From Methanomassiliicoccus sp. (GTDB taxonomy: Archaea > Thermoplasmatota > Thermoplasmata > Methanomassiliicoccales > Methanomassiliicoccaceae): a DNA stretch of 64,000 nucleotides. Within the stretch, counting starts at the first letter, position 1. Every line of letters begins with the position of its first letter. A model generated the notes under the pieces. That model saw nothing but the letters and a program-made list of their open reading frames with translations, had not been told where the DNA came from and did not search any database. A program made the position numbers and the translations under genes. Of this stretch, positions 8,861 to 17,188 are shown one piece after another. The DNA lies in the NCBI GenBank assembly GCA_033485155.1, contig JAWQJJ010000001.1:186001-250000 (forward strand). Direction: 5' to 3'.

Positions 8861-9124
8861 TTACAGCTTCGCCGCAGGCTTCTTGGTGGTGACCCTCTTG
8901 GGGAAGTACTTCAGGATGATGATGTCTCCCACCGACTGAATCCACCGGAACGGCACGTTCACAGCCTTCGACTCCTCTACCAGGAGGGGATTCGTCTCGC
9001 TGACGAACAGGCCATCCACGCGCTTGTTGTCAAGATCGATCACCAGGTTGTTGACGTTTCCCAGGAAGATACCGTTCGACGTGTAGACCTGCAATCCCAT
9101 TAGCTCAGACGCTTCCTCTAGCAT
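8861..9124 (-). CDS. PRC-barrel domain protein
   Basis: This 87-residue protein is a single PRC-barrel: GLQVYTSNGIFLGNVNNLVIDL, then VDGLFVSETNPLL and VPFRWIQSVGDIIIL. A basic tail (KRVTTKKPAAKL) follows. Archaeal PRC-barrel proteins include the CdpB proteins, which act with FtsZ in cell division in haloarchaea; whether this one does is unknown. A related PRC-barrel gene lies at 16943-17188. The two share the fold but differ in their termini. Confidence 0.85.
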   Translation of the reverse strand: MLEEASELMGLQVYTSNGIFLGNVNNLVIDLDNKRVDGLFVSETNPLLVEESKAVNVPFRWIQSVGDIIILKYFPKRVTTKKPAAKL

Positions 9125-9306: not shown

Positions 9307-9702
9307 ATGGACGAGATCGAACAGATCAGGGAGAAGAAGAGGCAGGAGATGCTGAAGGGCGGGCCCCAGGGGGCTGACTGGCCGGCCGAGCCTGCTGAGG
9401 TCAATGACGGTACGTTCAACGATTTCATCAAGAAGTACTCGGTAGTGGTGGTCGACTGCTGGGCGCCGTGGTGTGGACCATGCCGGATGATGTCTCCGGT
9501 GATCGATGCGCTGGCCAAGGAGATGCAGGGTAAGATCGCCTTCGGGAAGCTGAACACCGATATGAACCCCAAGGTCGCTATGCGCTTCCAGATCGAGGCC
9601 ATCCCCACCCTGCTGGTCCTTAAGGACGGGGAGCTGGTGGAGCGGCTGGTCGGCGCCAAGCCCAAGGAAGACCTCGCCAGGCGGCTGCGCGCTCACCTCT
9701 GA
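9307..9702 (+). CDS. trxA: Thioredoxin with N-terminal extension
   Basis: The protein has 131 residues. About 30 charged residues (DEIEQIREKKRQEM) precede a classical thioredoxin fold with WCGPC at 55-59 and the cis-proline in IEAIPTLLVLKDGE. The protein would reduce disulfides in the cytosol. A thioredoxin-reductase-like gene follows 85 bp later with its own TATA-like box, so the two are neighbours rather than a strict operon. The charged N-terminal extension is not part of the standard fold. Confidence 0.92.
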   Translation: MDEIEQIREKKRQEMLKGGPQGADWPAEPAEVNDGTFNDFIKKYSVVVVDCWAPWCGPCRMMSPVIDALAKEMQGKIAFGKLNTDMNPKVAMRFQIEAIPTLLVLKDGELVERLVGAKPKEDLARRLRAHL

Positions 9703-9787: not shown

Positions 9788-10672
9788 ATGGAGACGGACA
9801 TCACCATCATAGGGCTCGGTCCAGCCGGACTGCAGGCTGCAATCCACGCGGCGAGGAAAAAGGTCAAGGTCGTCGCCGTGGGGAAGAGCGAAGTGTCATC
9901 TCTCAACAAGGCCGAGGTGGAGAACTACCTGGGCCTCGACAAGACGGACGGAACGGAGATCCTGAGCAAGGGAAGGGAACAGGCCAAGAGGTTCGGCGCG
10001 GAGCTGCTGGAGGAGGAGGTCGTCAAACTCATCAAAGAGGGAGACGCCTTCGTCGTGGTCACCGACCATGAGAGGGAGATACGCTCCCGGGCGGTGGTCC
10101 TCGCGGTTGGCATCTCCCGGGCCAAGCTTAATGTTCCAGGAGAGAAGGAGTTCCTGGGGAAGGGGGTGAGCTACTGCGCCTCCTGCGATGCTGGGTTCTT
10201 CAAAGGGCGTCCGGTCGTGATAATCGGCGAGGAGAGCGAGGCCGCAGAATCGGCCTCATTGATGACGGAGTACGCGTCAAAGGTGTACTGGGTCCATCGG
10301 CAGTTGAAGGCTTCAGAGCAGATGGTGGAGAAGGCCCGCAAGGCTAACGTCGAAATGGTCCAGGCCAAGCCGCTGCGCATTGTGGGCGAGCAGACCGTCA
10401 CCGGCCTGGAGCTGGAAGGTGGAAGGAAGCTGGACGTGAACGGTGTGTTCATCGCTCTGGGGGCCAAGGGGTCGATCGAGCTGGCCCTGGAGCTGGGCAT
10501 CATGCCCGACCCCAGCGGCCAGATCCCGGTGGACGGCAACTGCCGCACCGAGATGGAGATGGTGTACGCCTGCGGAGACGTGACCGGCCTGCCCTGGCAG
10601 CTGGCCCGCGCCGTCGGTCAGGGTTGCGTGGCCGGCGACAACGCCGCAAAAGCGGTCCGGGCAGGGAAGTGA
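9788..10672 (+). CDS. trxB: Thioredoxin-reductase-like flavoprotein
   Basis: The 294-residue protein has FAD motif GLGPAG (9-14), redox pair CASC (130-133) and the terminal FAD motif ACGDVTG. The second nucleotide site is degenerate. The usual GGGxSA is GEESEA (147-152), and the HRR pattern for NADPH phosphate is HRQ (170-172). This resembles the situation in the deazaflavin-dependent thioredoxin reductase of Methanocaldococcus, so F420H2 rather than NADPH may be the donor. A TATA-like TATAAAAA at about 9747-9755 lies upstream. Partner thioredoxin is at 9307. Confidence 0.85.
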   Translation: METDITIIGLGPAGLQAAIHAARKKVKVVAVGKSEVSSLNKAEVENYLGLDKTDGTEILSKGREQAKRFGAELLEEEVVKLIKEGDAFVVVTDHEREIRSRAVVLAVGISRAKLNVPGEKEFLGKGVSYCASCDAGFFKGRPVVIIGEESEAAESASLMTEYASKVYWVHRQLKASEQMVEKARKANVEMVQAKPLRIVGEQTVTGLELEGGRKLDVNGVFIALGAKGSIELALELGIMPDPSGQIPVDGNCRTEMEMVYACGDVTGLPWQLARAVGQGCVAGDNAAKAVRAGK

Positions 10673-10676
10673 GCCG

Positions 10677-11198
10677 ATGTCCCTGGAGAACGAATTGGTG
10701 GCAGGAATATTGCGGGAAGAGGGCGGGTTCCGAGATTCGCTGAGGAAGGTTCTAGAAGAGGATCTCAAGATGAGCATTCACGAATTCTGCTCCCAGACCG
10801 GGCTGTCGCCGTCGACGATCTACAAAATAATGCAGGACCAGAGGGAGCCCAACCTTCGCACGGTGAGAGACATCATCCGGGCCGTCCGCCGCATGGAGAC
10901 CAAGCCGCACGGTAACTTCATAGCCGTCATCGCCGCCCGCCCGGTGCTCAGCCGGATCGAGGAGCGGACGGTTAAGGTCGGAGAGCGTGACGTAAGGGTC
11001 AAGGAATACCCGGCCAACAGCATGGAGGACGCGATCGTCGCCGCGGTGATGGCGGAGAAGGACGGGGCGCTGGCGATTGTGTGTGCGCCCATCGTTGCGC
11101 CTACTATCCAGAAGATCTTGACCATCCCGGTCTCCATTGTCATTCCCCGGGATAGCATCGCGCGGGCCATCGAGGTAGCCGCCCAGAAGACCCTGTGA
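10677..11198 (+). CDS. XRE-type HTH transcriptional regulator with C-terminal sensor-like domain
   Basis: This 173-residue protein begins with a helical lead, then an XRE HTH (SIHEFCSQTGLSPSTIYKIM, followed by PNLRTVRDIIRAVRRME). The C-terminal alpha/beta domain has FIAVIAARPVLSRIEER and CAPIVAPTIQKILTIPVSIV. This combination resembles archaeal COG1709-type regulators. The start is 4 nt after the reductase stop, so the two genes are co-transcribed, which suggests a link to redox state. The ligand of the C-terminal domain is unknown. Confidence 0.75.
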   Translation: MSLENELVAGILREEGGFRDSLRKVLEEDLKMSIHEFCSQTGLSPSTIYKIMQDQREPNLRTVRDIIRAVRRMETKPHGNFIAVIAARPVLSRIEERTVKVGERDVRVKEYPANSMEDAIVAAVMAEKDGALAIVCAPIVAPTIQKILTIPVSIVIPRDSIARAIEVAAQKTL

Positions 11199-11407: not shown

Positions 11408-12178
11408 TTAAACGCCCTGGCGCTGCTGCTCCAGCTCATCGAGGATGGTCTTCCTTAGGTTGATGAAATCTTGGTTGGCCCGGTCCCGTGGTCGGGGAAG
11501 CTCTATCTTGTGGATGACCCTCACTCTCCCCGGACGGGAGGTGAGGACGACGACTCTATCAGATAGGAATACCGCCTCATCCACCGAGTGGGTGATGAAT
11601 ATGATGGTCTTCTTCGTCTCCGACCAGATGCGGAGCAGTTCCTTCTGCATCTGGTTCCTGGTCTGAGCGTCCAAAGCTCCGAAAGGTTCGTCCATGAGCA
11701 GGATCGCAGGCTCGTTGGCCAATGCCCGGGCGATCCCCACACGCTGCTTCATGCCTCCGGAAAGCTGGTTGGGGTGGGAATCTTCGAAACCCTTCAGCCC
11801 GACCAGGTCGATATACTTCTGGGAGATCTCCTTTCTTTTCTCAGAGGATACGCCCTTCACTTCCAACCCGAACTCGACGTTGCGGCGGACTGTTCTCCAA
11901 GGGAAGAGAGCGAATTCCTGGAACACCATCCCGCGGTCCGAGCCCGGTCCGATGATGTTCTTGCCCTTGAGGGTCATGGTCCCCGATGTCTTGCTCTCAA
12001 GCCCGGCAATGATCCTCAGAAGTGTGGTCTTGCCGCACCCCGAGGGTCCCAGTATGCACACGAACTCGCCGTCCTTGACCTCTAGGTCGATGTCCTGGAG
12101 TGCGACGAGCTGGTCCTGACCCTTGGGGAAGACCTTGGTCATGTGCTGGATCGTTAGACTTACCGCATTCCCATCCAT
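11408..12178 (-). CDS. ABC importer ATP-binding protein (SsuB/TauB type)
   Basis: The 256-residue ATPase has Walker A GPSGCGKTT, Q-loop MVFQEFALFPW, signature LSGGMKQRV, Walker B ILLMDEPFGALDAQT and switch ITHSVDEAVFLSDR. These features and the closing PRPRDR motif are typical of nitrate/sulfonate/taurine importers. It overlaps the permease end by 19 nt and completes an SBP-permease-ATPase operon. The transported compound cannot be read from the sequence; an organosulfonate or other small anion is the usual guess. Confidence 0.9.
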   Translation of the reverse strand: MDGNAVSLTIQHMTKVFPKGQDQLVALQDIDLEVKDGEFVCILGPSGCGKTTLLRIIAGLESKTSGTMTLKGKNIIGPGSDRGMVFQEFALFPWRTVRRNVEFGLEVKGVSSEKRKEISQKYIDLVGLKGFEDSHPNQLSGGMKQRVGIARALANEPAILLMDEPFGALDAQTRNQMQKELLRIWSETKKTIIFITHSVDEAVFLSDRVVVLTSRPGRVRVIHKIELPRPRDRANQDFINLRKTILDELEQQRQGV

Positions 12179-12981
12179 ATTGAGACCCTCTTCTCGATGA
12201 GCTTGGAGGCGCCCGTGGTCGCAATACCTAGGATGGCGATCATGAGCATTCCAGCGAACATATATTCATAGAGGCCGATCGAACCGTTGATATTGATGAT
12301 CGCACCGATCCCGCCGCCCCTGGCGCCGATCATCTCGGCTGCCACTATGCACATCCAAGCGATGCCGAGACCTACAGTCACGCCGGTCATCAGATATGGG
12401 ATGGTGTACGGGAAGACAACCTTGGTGAAGATCGTCCTTCGGTTCGCTCCCAGTGTCTTGGCCGCGTCCATGAGAGTCGTCTCCACGCTCTTGACCCCGA
12501 AGATGACGTTGGACAGTATAGGGAAGAATGCTCCCAGGAATATGACCGCCACCGGTCCCCAGTACAGCCCCAGGGCGATGAAGAACAGGGGCACCCAGGC
12601 AATGGGGGGGATGGGCCTTAGCATCTCGGCTATCGGCTTGCCCAAGCCGTCGGCTATGCGAGAGTAACCCATGGCCAGCCCCAACGGCACCGCCACGAGC
12701 AGGGCTAGCAAGAACCCGACGACGAACCTACCCAGGCTTGCAAAAACCTGCTGCATCATCGGCAGGCCGGTGGCAGGGTCCTTGTTGAAGGACTTGATGA
12801 AAGCATCCAGCACCAGCGGTGGTGCGGGCAGATATGGTTTATTCAGAATTATCGAACCGATCCACCATATGGCTATGAATCCAATGATGGAAATGGCATA
12901 GAGTATGTAGTCAGATGCCTGATCACGCTTCAAGCCGATAAAAGACCGGAAAGAGCGGCCTGGCTCCTGAGTGTTTGTCAT
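12160..12981 (-). CDS. ABC importer permease (SsuC/TauC type)
   Basis: The 273-residue protein has six membrane segments. The EAA loop contains DAAKTLGANRRTIFTKVVFP, the coupling motif that docks to the ATPase. The preceding REMLRPIPPIAWVPL-like stretch (AEMLRPIPPIAWVPLFFIA) is diagnostic for the SsuC/TauC group. It lies between the binding-protein gene (47 nt away) and the ATPase gene (19-nt overlap). Confidence 0.9.
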   Translation of the reverse strand: MTNTQEPGRSFRSFIGLKRDQASDYILYAISIIGFIAIWWIGSIILNKPYLPAPPLVLDAFIKSFNKDPATGLPMMQQVFASLGRFVVGFLLALLVAVPLGLAMGYSRIADGLGKPIAEMLRPIPPIAWVPLFFIALGLYWGPVAVIFLGAFFPILSNVIFGVKSVETTLMDAAKTLGANRRTIFTKVVFPYTIPYLMTGVTVGLGIAWMCIVAAEMIGARGGGIGAIININGSIGLYEYMFAGMLMIAILGIATTGASKLIEKRVSIWMGMR

Positions 12982-13028: not shown

Positions 13029-14111
13029 TTAAGCCGCCACGACATTATAGCCGTTCTTCTCCGCTATGGCCTGCAGAAGCAAGTGCTGGATGGAACCCAG
13101 CCCGGGGTCGCCGATGACCTTGCCGTTCAGGTCCGCGAAGGTCTTGATGTCATTGGACACCACCAGGGCGGAACCCTCGGTGTTGGCACCGGCGATAATC
13201 TTCACCTGGACGCCGTTGTTCAGGTGCTTCAGGATGGCGGGCGGGGCACCAAGATAGCCAATATCCACGCTGTTGGCGGCGAAAGCGTCCATCTCGGCCG
13301 GGCCGGCGGCAAATCCACCGGGACTGGCAGCGACGGCATTTATGCCATACTGATGGAACAGGGAGGTCCCGCCGCCCACGGTGGCGTTCATGGCCACCAG
13401 GCGAGCGAACTGGTGCAGGTCACCGGCAAGGTATCCTACCTTGACCTCGGTCATTGTCGTGGTAGGCTGGACATCACCGATCGAGTTCAGGTATGATGCG
13501 TCCACATACTTGCCGATGAAGTCATCGACCGAAGAGTAGCCGGCAGAGGTCAGCTTGGCCTCACTGGTCTGGTTCAGCTGGATGAAGTCGTTGGTGAAGT
13601 TCTTCAGTCCGTCGATGAACGAGGACGACAATTGGTCGGTGAACTTGGTGTGGTCCAGAGAGTCCGCGACCACGCTGTTGTTGGTGTTGCTGAACTCCGC
13701 ACCCATCTGCAGGAGCAGGGTGTAGTTGGCGCTGTCAGGGTGAGCGATGGCATCAGCGATCCAGGCATTCGCTAGGTCGTTAGCCTTCAGGAACGCCTTT
13801 ACCACATCGGGGTGGGCTTGGGCGAACGCATTGCTGGCGACCACAACACAGCACGGATGGTCGGGCCAGATCTCACTAGACCAGTAGAGCACGTGAGCGT
13901 TACCGGACATCACGGCCTGTGAGGAGTATGGTTCCCATGATATGCCTCCCGCGATGCTGCCCTGAGCTATAGCATCAGCCTGCAACTTGGGAGCAACGGT
14001 CGTGTACTTGATCGTCTTTTCCGAAGTAGACGGTATTGTCGCCCACGCCACCGCGGCGATGACGACTACCGCGACCACTAGTACAGCAGCAATAATGTAA
14101 CTTCTCTTCAT
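13029..14111 (-). CDS. ABC importer substrate-binding protein, apparently circularly permuted
   Basis: The 360-residue protein has a hydrophobic N-terminal anchor (about 6-26). In the NMT1/SsuA-like family the order is strand VKVGY, GxxEMDAFAA, GAPPAI, NTEGSALVV and GSIQHLLL, followed by the second lobe with ISWEPY and IWPDHPCC. Here the second lobe comes first: KYTTVAPKLQADAIAQ at about 34-50, ISWEPY at 57, IWPDHPCCVVV at 81. The first lobe begins only at EVKVGYLAGD (about 222) and runs to the stop, ending IQHLLLQAIAEKNG. The frame is uninterrupted, so this is a rearranged but intact gene. It is first in the importer operon. Confidence 0.8.
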   Translation of the reverse strand: MKRSYIIAAVLVVAVVVIAAVAWATIPSTSEKTIKYTTVAPKLQADAIAQGSIAGGISWEPYSSQAVMSGNAHVLYWSSEIWPDHPCCVVVASNAFAQAHPDVVKAFLKANDLANAWIADAIAHPDSANYTLLLQMGAEFSNTNNSVVADSLDHTKFTDQLSSSFIDGLKNFTNDFIQLNQTSEAKLTSAGYSSVDDFIGKYVDASYLNSIGDVQPTTTMTEVKVGYLAGDLHQFARLVAMNATVGGGTSLFHQYGINAVAASPGGFAAGPAEMDAFAANSVDIGYLGAPPAILKHLNNGVQVKIIAGANTEGSALVVSNDIKTFADLNGKVIGDPGLGSIQHLLLQAIAEKNGYNVVAA

Positions 14112-14346: not shown

Positions 14347-14808
14347 ATGTTCGAGCTCAATGTCGAGAGCAACACCCCCTTGACTCCGTTGAAGGACGTT
14401 GACGACATCGCCCTGCAATTCCTCACCCACATCGGGTACCTCCCCAAGGGATATAATCCCAAGACCAACGTAATCGATACGCAGGACAGCGTGCCGTACC
14501 GGCTGTTCATGGAATGCTTCATGCGGAACATGAAGCGGGCGTGGCTCGTGGACGAGCTGGCCGCCCACCTAAGCACGACCAAGCCAACCATCTACCGCCA
14601 CCTGAACAAGCTCAAGGCCATAGACATCCTCGAGGAGATCGAGACTGAGAGGGACGGTTCGGTCAAGAAAGGCTACCGCATCCGGTACGGTGACCTGAGG
14701 AAGGCGTGGAGCTTCACCGAGGCCAACGTGGAGATGGCCATGCAGAACTACCGCCTGACGGTGGAGCACTTCCAAAAGCTCGTAGAGGAGGAATCGAAAT
14801 GGCAATGA
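14347..14808 (+). CDS. Winged-helix transcriptional regulator
   Basis: The 153-residue protein has a central wHTH (AWLVDELAAHLSTTKPTIYR, recognition helix PTIYRHLNKLKAIDIL) and a wing region (ERDGSVKKGYRIRYG). A C-terminal helix follows that could dimerise (NVEMAMQNYRLTVEHFQKLV). It is divergent from the ABC importer and preceded by a strong dyad, so it may control that operon or itself. It overlaps the next gene by 10 nt. A GC-alternating run (GCGCGCGCG) lies just before the start. Confidence 0.75.
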   Translation: MFELNVESNTPLTPLKDVDDIALQFLTHIGYLPKGYNPKTNVIDTQDSVPYRLFMECFMRNMKRAWLVDELAAHLSTTKPTIYRHLNKLKAIDILEEIETERDGSVKKGYRIRYGDLRKAWSFTEANVEMAMQNYRLTVEHFQKLVEEESKWQ

Positions 14809-15098: not shown

Positions 15099-16640
15099 TT
15101 GGGATATCACGAGGACCTCATCCGCCTGATGCTGGAGGGCGAGGTCAAGGACAAGGAGGCCCTCCAGCGGGCCAAGATTGAGCTGTGCCGCCGTTACGGC
15201 CTTAATAGGGTACCGCCGAACTCGGAGACCCTCTCCCTGGTCGAGGCTCAGCACCTAGCCACGGTTAACGAGATCCTGCGCCGCAAGCCAGTGAGAACCC
15301 TGTCGGGTGTGGCGGTGGTGGCGGTGATGACCTCCCCGGCCCCCTGCCCTCACGGCAAGTGCATCTTCTGCCCCGGGGGAGTGGAGAGCGGATCGCCGCA
15401 GTCCTACACTGGCAAGGAGCCGGCGGCTCGCCGGGGCGCATCCTACGAGTTCGATCCCTACGCGCAGGTCAGAGGACGCATGGAGCAACTGGAGGAGATC
15501 GGCCACGGGACGGACAAGATCGACCTGATAGTCATGGGAGGCACTTTCACCTCCCGCCCGGTCGAGTACCAGGTGGAGTTCGTCAAGCGCTGCTTCGACG
15601 CCATGAACCTCTCACCATCCGCAGATCTGGAGGATGCCCAGGTGATGAACGAGAACGCACCCCACCGCTGCGTCGGCCTGACGGTGGAGACGCGGCCGGA
15701 TGCCCTGACCGAGGAGCAGGTGGCGGTGTCCATGCGTCTCGGGATGACCAGAGTGGAGATGGGGGTGCAGATTCTCGACGACGGGATCCTCAGGGCGGTC
15801 AACCGCGGCCACGGACTGCAGGCTGTGGTCGACGCCACCGCGGTGGCCAAGCGGGCCGGCCTCAAGGTGTGCTACCACTTGATGCCTGGGCTCCCCGGCT
15901 CGTCGCCGGCCAAGGACCTCGATTCCTTCCGCCGCGTGTTCGAGGATCCCGCCTTCCGGCCGGACATGCTGAAGCTGTATCCCACCCTGGTGGTGAAGGG
16001 GACAAAGCTTTTCGAGATGTGGCAGCAGGGCGAGTACGCGCCGTACACGACCGATGAGGCGGTGGAGCTGATGGCGGAGATGAAGCGTCTGGTGCCGCCA
16101 TGGGTTCGCATCCAGAGGATCCAGCGGGACATCCCGGTACCGCTGATCGAGGCCGGGGTGGACAAAGGCCACCTGAGAGAGCTGATCAAGGAGCGCATGC
16201 GCTCCAAGGGCCACGAATGCCGATGCATCCGCTGCCGCGAGGTCGGTCTCAAGGGAGTGAAGGACTACCGGCCGGAGGACGTGGTGATGACCGAGACGGC
16301 GTACCAGGCCTCGGGCGGAGATGAAACCTTCATCGCTTTCGAGTTGCCGGAACAGGATGCCCTGGTGGGGTACGCCCGCCTGAGGACGGGCGACGGACCG
16401 GTGGCCGGGCTGCGTGAGCTGAAGGTCTTCGGTCGCATGGTGCCGATAAAGAAGCAGGGCGGAGGGTGGCAGCACCGCGGGTACGGCAAGGAGCTGGTGG
16501 CCCGGGCGGAGGAGGTGGCCCGGGACAAGGGGTGCGAGGCCATCAGGGTAACCAGCGGCGTGGGGGTCCGCGAATATTACCGGTCTCTGAGATACTCACG
16601 CGACGGGATGTACATGAAAAAGACCCTCGGCCGGCCGTAG
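15099..16640 (+). CDS. elp3: Elp3-type radical SAM / acetyltransferase for tRNA U34
   Basis: The 513-residue protein has a radical SAM cluster CPHGKCIFC (Cys 83, 88, 91) followed by MGGTFTSRP and the long HAT-linked core. A second cysteine group lies near HECRCIRCREVG. The C-terminal GNAT domain has WQHRGYGKELVARAEEVA and GVREYYRSL. It builds cm5U34 in anticodons. The start TTG 15099 is the only one after the upstream stop codon. Length matches archaeal Elp3. Confidence 0.95.
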   Translation: MGYHEDLIRLMLEGEVKDKEALQRAKIELCRRYGLNRVPPNSETLSLVEAQHLATVNEILRRKPVRTLSGVAVVAVMTSPAPCPHGKCIFCPGGVESGSPQSYTGKEPAARRGASYEFDPYAQVRGRMEQLEEIGHGTDKIDLIVMGGTFTSRPVEYQVEFVKRCFDAMNLSPSADLEDAQVMNENAPHRCVGLTVETRPDALTEEQVAVSMRLGMTRVEMGVQILDDGILRAVNRGHGLQAVVDATAVAKRAGLKVCYHLMPGLPGSSPAKDLDSFRRVFEDPAFRPDMLKLYPTLVVKGTKLFEMWQQGEYAPYTTDEAVELMAEMKRLVPPWVRIQRIQRDIPVPLIEAGVDKGHLRELIKERMRSKGHECRCIRCREVGLKGVKDYRPEDVVMTETAYQASGGDETFIAFELPEQDALVGYARLRTGDGPVAGLRELKVFGRMVPIKKQGGGWQHRGYGKELVARAEEVARDKGCEAIRVTSGVGVREYYRSLRYSRDGMYMKKTLGRP

Positions 16641-16942: not shown

Positions 16943-17188
16943 TCACGCGTTGGAGACCGACATCACGACAACGTCGCGGACAGCACGCATCTCGCTGAAC
17001 GGAAGCACCAGCCGCCCCTGGGCGTCGGTCTTGTACAGCCGGCTCTCTACCTCCTCGGCTGGTACGACCAGGACGTTCTGGATGTCGCCCGAGGAGGTGT
17101 TCACCAAGAAGTTCTCGATCATACCGAGGATCTGCCCGTCGTTGGTCATGACGGTCTTCCCCTTCAGCTCAGTAATGAATTTTCTCAT
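16943..17188 (-). CDS. PRC-barrel domain protein (second copy)
   Basis: This 81-residue single-domain protein reads KFITELKGKTVMTNDGQILG, then IENFLVNTSSGDIQNVLVV and LVLPFSEMRAVRDVVVMSV. It is the same fold as the gene at 8861-9124. It lacks that protein's basic tail. Archaeal CdpB division proteins belong to this fold, but function here is not shown. The ribosome site GAGGGAGC precedes ATG 17188. Confidence 0.85.
   Translation of the reverse strand: MRKFITELKGKTVMTNDGQILGMIENFLVNTSSGDIQNVLVVPAEEVESRLYKTDAQGRLVLPFSEMRAVRDVVVMSVSNA

Follow-up and report, generated by a model that had tools for sequence, protein, structure and literature searches.

The window analysed here is a 64,000-nucleotide stretch of a Methanomassiliicoccus sp. 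genome (contig JAWQJJ010000001.1), a genome that also encodes McrA and so belongs to a Thermoplasmatota methanogen, which is consistent with Methanomassiliicoccales. Its minus strand carries a three-gene operon for a substrate-binding protein (SBP), an ABC permease and an ABC ATPase, in which the SBP gene is a single open frame of 360 residues. The original prediction, made from the sequence alone, had proposed an intact frame for a circularly permuted binding protein at positions 13029–14111; the coordinates and the frame both held, and the strand, which had been left unstated, is minus. The SBP and its parts, the partner genes and the flanks are as follows.

13029..14111, minus strand: circularly permuted SsuA/NMT1-type SBP, 360 aa, in the chain order termed CP1
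14040..14105, minus strand: N-terminal transmembrane anchor or signal helix, residues 3–24, without a lipobox Cys (AlphaFold2 helix; hydrophobic 19-mers)
13470..14018, minus strand: Block C, residues 32–214, the canonical SsuA/NMT1 C-terminal portion, placed first
13446..13469, minus strand: linker, residues 215–222, bridging the former canonical C and N termini
13215..13445, minus strand: Block N1, residues 223–299, the canonical N-terminal portion, with D-x-H-Q at 231–234
13041..13214, minus strand: Block N2, residues 300–357, the hinge strand and first half of lobe 2
12160..12981, minus strand: ABC permease (PF00528), directly downstream of the SBP gene
11408..12178, minus strand: ABC ATPase (PF00005), third gene of the operon
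14347..14808, plus strand: divergent HTH protein (HTH_20/ArsR-like), a flank kept at CP1 and reverted canonical loci
15099..16640, plus strand: Elp3-like gene, an upstream flank kept at CP1 and canonical loci (named by sequence reading, no profile)
10677..11198, plus strand: HTH_3 regulator-like gene, conserved downstream flank
9788..10672, plus strand: thioredoxin-reductase-like oxidoreductase (PF07992), conserved downstream flank
9307..9702, plus strand: thioredoxin (PF00085), conserved downstream flank

The window SBP runs C–N1–N2 rather than in the canonical N1–N2–C order. Block C, which contains WEP (59–61) and HPCC (85–88), follows the N-terminal anchor (hydrophobic 19-mers, maximum KD 3.07), and the chain ends with Block N2, at the CP1 break. 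Profile searches aligned residues 31–128 to positions 151–248 of PF13379 (NMT1_2) and residues 30–133 to positions 128–228 of TIGR01728 (SsuA), and the N-terminal parts of the family profiles were matched by residues 223–358; the PDB chains of TauA and SsuA were matched in the same two inverted pieces. As encoded, the protein scored 79.2 bits against PF13379 (gathering threshold 24.7) in two stretches covering both halves. Rotation in silico (residues 217–360, then 30–216) raised this score to 89.6 bits and the TIGR01728 score from 105.1 to 121.5 bits, each as one continuous match, and improved the match to TauA from E = 3.3e-6 to 1e-8. Because the two-piece matches become one better-scoring match on rotation, the circular permutation resides in the sequence itself. 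Neither score reaches the curated SsuA cut-off (TIGR01728, 163.5 bits; 105.1 encoded, 121.5 rotated), and the protein is SsuA/NMT1-type by profile without being filed as SsuA proper.

The predicted natural permutation is thus upheld by profiles, PDB chain matches and rotation, and the alignment with SsuA/NMT1-like proteins proposed as a check both confirmed the swapped order and gave a continuous match once rotated. All the motif sites named in the original prediction held (ISWEPY at 57–62, IWPDHPCC at 81–88, VKVGYLAGD at 223–231, SALVV at 314–318 and GSIQHLLL at 339–346). Its statement that the two lobes occur in reverse order held only in part: the halves are swapped, but the break, between helix 341–352 and strand 33–38, falls inside lobe 2 and not between the lobes, as alignment to SsuA and TauA (type II SBPs) shows. 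The same genome encodes a second NMT1-type SBP, in canonical order, with an ATPase gene directly upstream (L002; G000:C9:98112-101387).

The permutation would be a striking case, it had been argued, if shared by relatives, and it is: about 70 homologues from independent assemblies have the same order. Of 61 relatives, close or at the level of the taxonomic order, 60 have a homologue, in most cases full length and collinear with the window protein; across the whole taxonomic order, 107 of the 116 genomes have one. The worry that the locus might be an assembly error is removed by these relatives, which supply full-length collinear homologues in dozens of independent assemblies. Compared with its nearest relative (75% identical; Candidatus Thermoplasmatota archaeon UR.bin18, L034/L005), the window gene has a dN/dS of about 0.14 and is under purifying selection. 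The circular permutation is therefore real, neither chance nor assembly error. In one genome (G008:C46, L049/L093) a frameshift divides the CP1 gene between two overlapping frames, which points to a pseudogene or to an error in sequencing.

The window order belongs to a series of permutations that includes a reversal, a refinement of the original prediction. We read break points for 142 domain units by segment searches and then with an end-to-end doubled profile HMM (332 model columns, numbered from the canonical start), which lets a permuted protein align without interruption. Among archaea, this operon gene occurs in at least five chain orders:

Canonical: break at model column 0, 9 units
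CP2: break near model column 79, 54 units
CP4: break near model column 100, 1 unit
CP1 (window protein): break near model column 138, 71 units
CP3: break near model column 178, 7 units

CP1 is spread over families f1, f3, f4, f5 and f6 of the window protein's taxonomic order and other orders of its class, and also occurs in Halobacteriota and Ca. Mnemosynella; family f2 is occupied by CP2 and CP3. The canonical order is found in bacteria (L036, L037 and other Thermodesulfobacteriota), in many Halobacteriota and, within the window protein's own taxonomic order, in three genomes (G010, G027 and G044; L051–L053). Among 118 Thermodesulfobacteriota genomes, 17 had homologues; these were canonical wherever both halves were matched, and permuted copies were not seen among them. 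Eight single-contig genomes carry CP2, CP3 or tandem forms (G023, G029, G035, G041, G045, G051, G053 and G055). The sole CP4 example (L174/L193, G442:C93) has a TAT-like signal (SRRSILK) and a lipobox-like AGC, and it lacks the C-C pair (HPCD). Two further proteins, L044 (G060:C70:1-2700, minus strand) and L048 (G048:C31, L048:2672-5437, minus strand), combine a CP1 binding domain with long fibronectin-III-like or repeat extensions and have no transporter genes adjacent; L048 has a hydrophobic segment at its C terminus. We regard both as surface proteins based on a permuted SBP.

Despite the differing orders, the same residues recur. With canonical proteins pooled with CP4, W59-E60-P61, H85, C87-C88, D231-x-H233-Q234, G270, G288, P291, G313, P336 and Q342 reach a conservation of at least 70% within each of the canonical, CP1, CP2 and CP3 groups. 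AlphaFold2 returned a confident CP1 model (53-sequence CP1 alignment; pLDDT 94.8, pTM 0.88) and a model of the CP2 relative (pLDDT 92.0, pTM 0.86). The CP2 model matches SsuA, TauA, NrtA, CmpA and Thi5 structures over about 240–300 columns. Sequential Foldseek of the CP1 model against the PDB gave only weak matches (best OpuAC, E = 4e-4, TM 0.32), as expected because the longest collinear piece barely exceeds half the chain; OpuAC was not accepted as its family (TM 0.32, rmsd 15 Å). The window SBP is predicted to have a two-lobe SsuA-type fold, a full superposition on SsuA not having been shown. By homology to SsuA and TauA, both new ends and the anchor of CP1 would lie on lobe 2.

The adjacent permease and ATPase genes (PF00528 and PF00005) meet the operon criterion for the window SBP, and the gene order SBP–permease–ATPase is retained at nearly all loci of every topology. 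The wider arrangement Elp3–HTH–[SBP–permease–ATPase]–HTH–TrxR–Trx is common to CP1 genomes, to a genome with a tandem fusion (G121) and to the three genomes with a canonical gene inside the taxonomic order; given these identical flanking genes, the CP1, tandem and reverted canonical genes are orthologous loci re-ordered in place. In family f2 the operon neighbours differ. Two PRC-barrel proteins, about 8 kb apart (8861–9124 and 16943–17188, both minus strand), flank the region in the window.

To trace the history of these orders, we built an SBP tree from 67 rows of rotated sequences and added permease–ATPase trees (94 rows, 66 rows, and 60 rows with extra Halobacteriota), because the downstream genes are unpermuted and hence free of rotation bias. 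In the SBP tree CP2 is nested in CP1, CP3 arises twice inside CP2, and the canonical L051–L053 fall among CP1 proteins; the permease–ATPase tree agrees on all three points. AU tests, on groups defined only after inspection of the trees, reject CP3 as a single clade (p = 4e-34, SBP; 8e-113, operon), the canonical proteins on one side of a branch (p = 3.7e-5, SBP; 9.4e-5, operon) and likewise CP1 (p = 1.6e-6, SBP; 2.9e-76, operon). CP4 lies within a canonical clade of the 60-row permease–ATPase tree and has a separate origin, from a canonical neighbour. A Halobacteriota CP1 clade (L177/L178 and L181–L192) falls beside canonical genes with weak support (86/58); its position is unsure, and CP1 therefore had one or two origins. 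A second CP2 origin, suggested when L050 and L120 stood apart in a first quick tree, was dropped, as careful SBP and operon trees unite them with the other CP2 proteins.

The proteins also carry marks of earlier orders at their former break points, which we measured as a surplus or deficit of residues relative to the model. At the CP1 seam, canonical and CP4 proteins from outside the taxonomic order show −7 to −3 residues (n = 15), the reverted canonical L051–L053 show +4 (n = 3), CP2 proteins a median of +6 (range 0 to +19, n = 46) and CP3 proteins +6 (n = 7). At the CP2 seam, CP3 proteins show +6 to +11; canonical and nearly all CP1 proteins show −1 to 0. The linkers at this seam differ between the two CP3 clades (NNMDITSSVEK versus NFGYIDSDSVKDTSKAY), in keeping with two separate CP3 origins. 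In absolute length, the seam spans 29–34 residues in CP3 and 22–23 in unpermuted proteins, and 35–36 in living CP2×CP2 fusions. We read the surplus as linker remnants, or scars, of earlier orders, with ordinary loop insertions as a possible alternative; on seam lengths, the linker-remnant criterion of permutation by duplication is met.

In-frame tandem fusions were found in five genes and two topologies, CP1×CP1 and CP2×CP2. The CP1×CP1 fusion (G121) is 731 aa long with units 51% identical; one CP2×CP2 fusion, from a single-contig genome (G055), has 790 aa and units 86% identical, and three others (G091, G093 and G098) have units 60–74% identical. In each, the only hydrophobic anchor is at the N terminus, with no second one where the two units join. 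Such a fusion holds every other circular order contiguously, and trimming of both ends therefore gives a new order. The fusions are thus the intermediates expected under permutation by duplication, and its living-fusion criterion is met. None of the living tandem genes is a direct parent of the sampled CP3, canonical or other permuted clades; they show that the duplication step recurs.

We propose that the window gene product is the membrane-anchored SBP of an SsuABC/TauABC-like ABC importer. The permuted chain would fold as a two-lobe trap with its old termini joined by a short linker, and would work as an ordinary Venus-flytrap receptor, tethered to the membrane and handing its ligand to the permease; this is inferred, without expression or transport data. 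Each re-ordering would have begun with a tandem duplication, in place, of the mature domain and continued with differential trimming, a mechanism that is likewise inferred. The putative steps are canonical to CP1, CP1 to CP2, CP2 to CP3 twice independently, a reversal from CP1 to canonical at the same chromosomal locus, and a separate change from canonical to CP4. The data show the alternative orders and how these nest in two gene sets that are independent of each other, as well as the seam scars, the tandem fusions and the conserved locus and motifs. That archaea possess a functional, membrane-anchored permuted SBP that has undergone serial permutation in place is very likely, with ligand binding and delivery, like the mechanism, inferred and the ligand unknown. 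The bolder reading, that one orthologous operon gene has changed order at least six times through recurrent internal tandem duplication and trimming, we hold to be probable.

The most serious rival derives every order separately from a canonical ancestor, with neither a serial history nor a reversal. CP4 did derive from a canonical neighbour, and one Halobacteriota CP1 clade is possibly independent of the main CP1 group (86/58). Against this, two independent gene trees nest CP2 in CP1 and CP3 in CP2, CP3 bears scars at both the CP1 and the CP2 seam, canonical L051–L053 have an insertion at the CP1 seam, and the AU tests reject single-clade groupings of CP1, CP3 and the canonical proteins; we consider independent origins unlikely. 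Gene fission and re-fusion, in which halves that were once separate genes rejoined in new orders, might draw support from the split frame in G008 (L049), which shows that broken copies exist. However, none of the sampled loci showed the halves as stable, separately encoded genes, whereas five in-frame tandem fusions, of two topologies, turned up; every copy also retains one N-terminal anchor and an unchanged place in the operon, which leaves this route little credibility.

The remaining rivals question the window protein itself. An assembly artefact or chimeric contig could be suspected because the window genome is in 15 contigs and the order is unusual, but the same order recurs in about 70 units from separate assemblies in two archaeal phyla, CP2, CP3 and tandem forms are present in single-contig genomes, and the open frame is under purifying selection; an artefact is as good as excluded. 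Instead of being the importer's SBP, the permuted protein might be a paralogue that is in decay or has taken on another role, such as that of a surface sensor: L044 and L048 are fused to repeat or surface-type extensions without transporter neighbours, and another canonical SBP (L002) is present in the same genome. The dN/dS of 0.14, the SBP–permease–ATPase adjacency at nearly all loci of every topology and the conservation of cleft motifs across orders make this highly improbable. Our preferred reading remains a functional importer SBP re-ordered serially in place.

Its ligand is hinted at only indirectly. H-[PT]-C-C (window 13848–13859, minus strand, residues 85–88) is near invariant and occurs with D-x-H-Q in canonical, CP1, CP2 and CP3 proteins; together with sub-threshold similarity to SaoX, these motifs hint at a thiol- or metal-related ligand, a possibility for which there are no binding data. 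The conserved thioredoxin and thioredoxin-reductase neighbours point the same way. SaoX (SAO, Sec-assisted organometallic; NF040735; PMC13188914) resembles the window SBP in profile (E = 1.5e-15 when rotated) and, as a lead, in its thiol-bearing SBP chemistry; the window SBP differs in its permuted order. Membership of the SAO system was rejected (NF040735, 46.9 bits encoded and 57.1 rotated, against a cut-off of 300). Coenzyme M was also set aside as an essential imported ligand: CoM biosynthesis genes are reported in Methanomassiliicoccales (Borrel et al. 2014, PMC4153887), and import is unneeded, though not excluded.

The window SBP resembles SsuA, TauA and NMT1 (PF13379, PF09084 and TIGR01728), the SBPs of importers for aliphatic sulfonates, taurine, nitrate and bicarbonate, in sequence family once rotated, in its permease–ATPase operon and in its predicted two-lobe fold; it differs in its permuted CP1 order, its conserved H-P-C-C and D-x-H-Q and its score below the SsuA cut-off. 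Natural permutation of an SBP has a precedent. Treponema pallidum Tp0684/MglB-2 is a naturally permuted type I glucose receptor, designated 'Type Ic / Cluster Bc', with a solved structure and a suggested tethering advantage (PMC4990184). Like it, the archaeal protein is a naturally permuted, membrane-tethered ABC-importer SBP conserved among relatives, and the permutation criterion of type Ic is met. The type I (cluster B) sugar-binding fold is not, the relatives by sequence and structure being SsuA, TauA and NrtA; whereas Tp0684 has a glucose-binding fold and one permutation, the archaeal gene is SsuA-type with serial orders, a reversal and tandem fusions. OpuAC/ProX 'domain dislocation' is reported to be another precedent, on which we do not rely. 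DNA methyltransferases and saposin/swaposin provide known cases of permutation by duplication, with intermediates (reviewed in PMC3320104). These cases share the predicted tandem-duplicate intermediates and cyclic orders; the archaeal SBP differs in showing intermediates, scars, successive orders and a return to the initial order, all for one operon gene of a single archaeal taxonomic order. In the open-access literature searched, we met neither permuted SsuA/NMT1 proteins nor a gene that passed through several orders in succession, with a reversal, and this absence is not proof. What is new here is serial permutation with reversal.

Circular permutation is mostly inferred from two end states. 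Here, its path and mechanism can be reconstructed from orders, duplicated intermediates, scars and a reversal in one operon gene. An ABC importer evidently tolerates an SBP whose membrane anchor is re-attached at differing positions of the fold, and the natural break sites are on offer for biosensor engineering. Family annotation that assumes a linear order scores permuted SBPs piecemeal, and L072, the CP3 protein tested, had no NCBIfam match. If the bolder reading is true, circular permutation would be a routine and reversible change in this family, legible from the scars at its seams.
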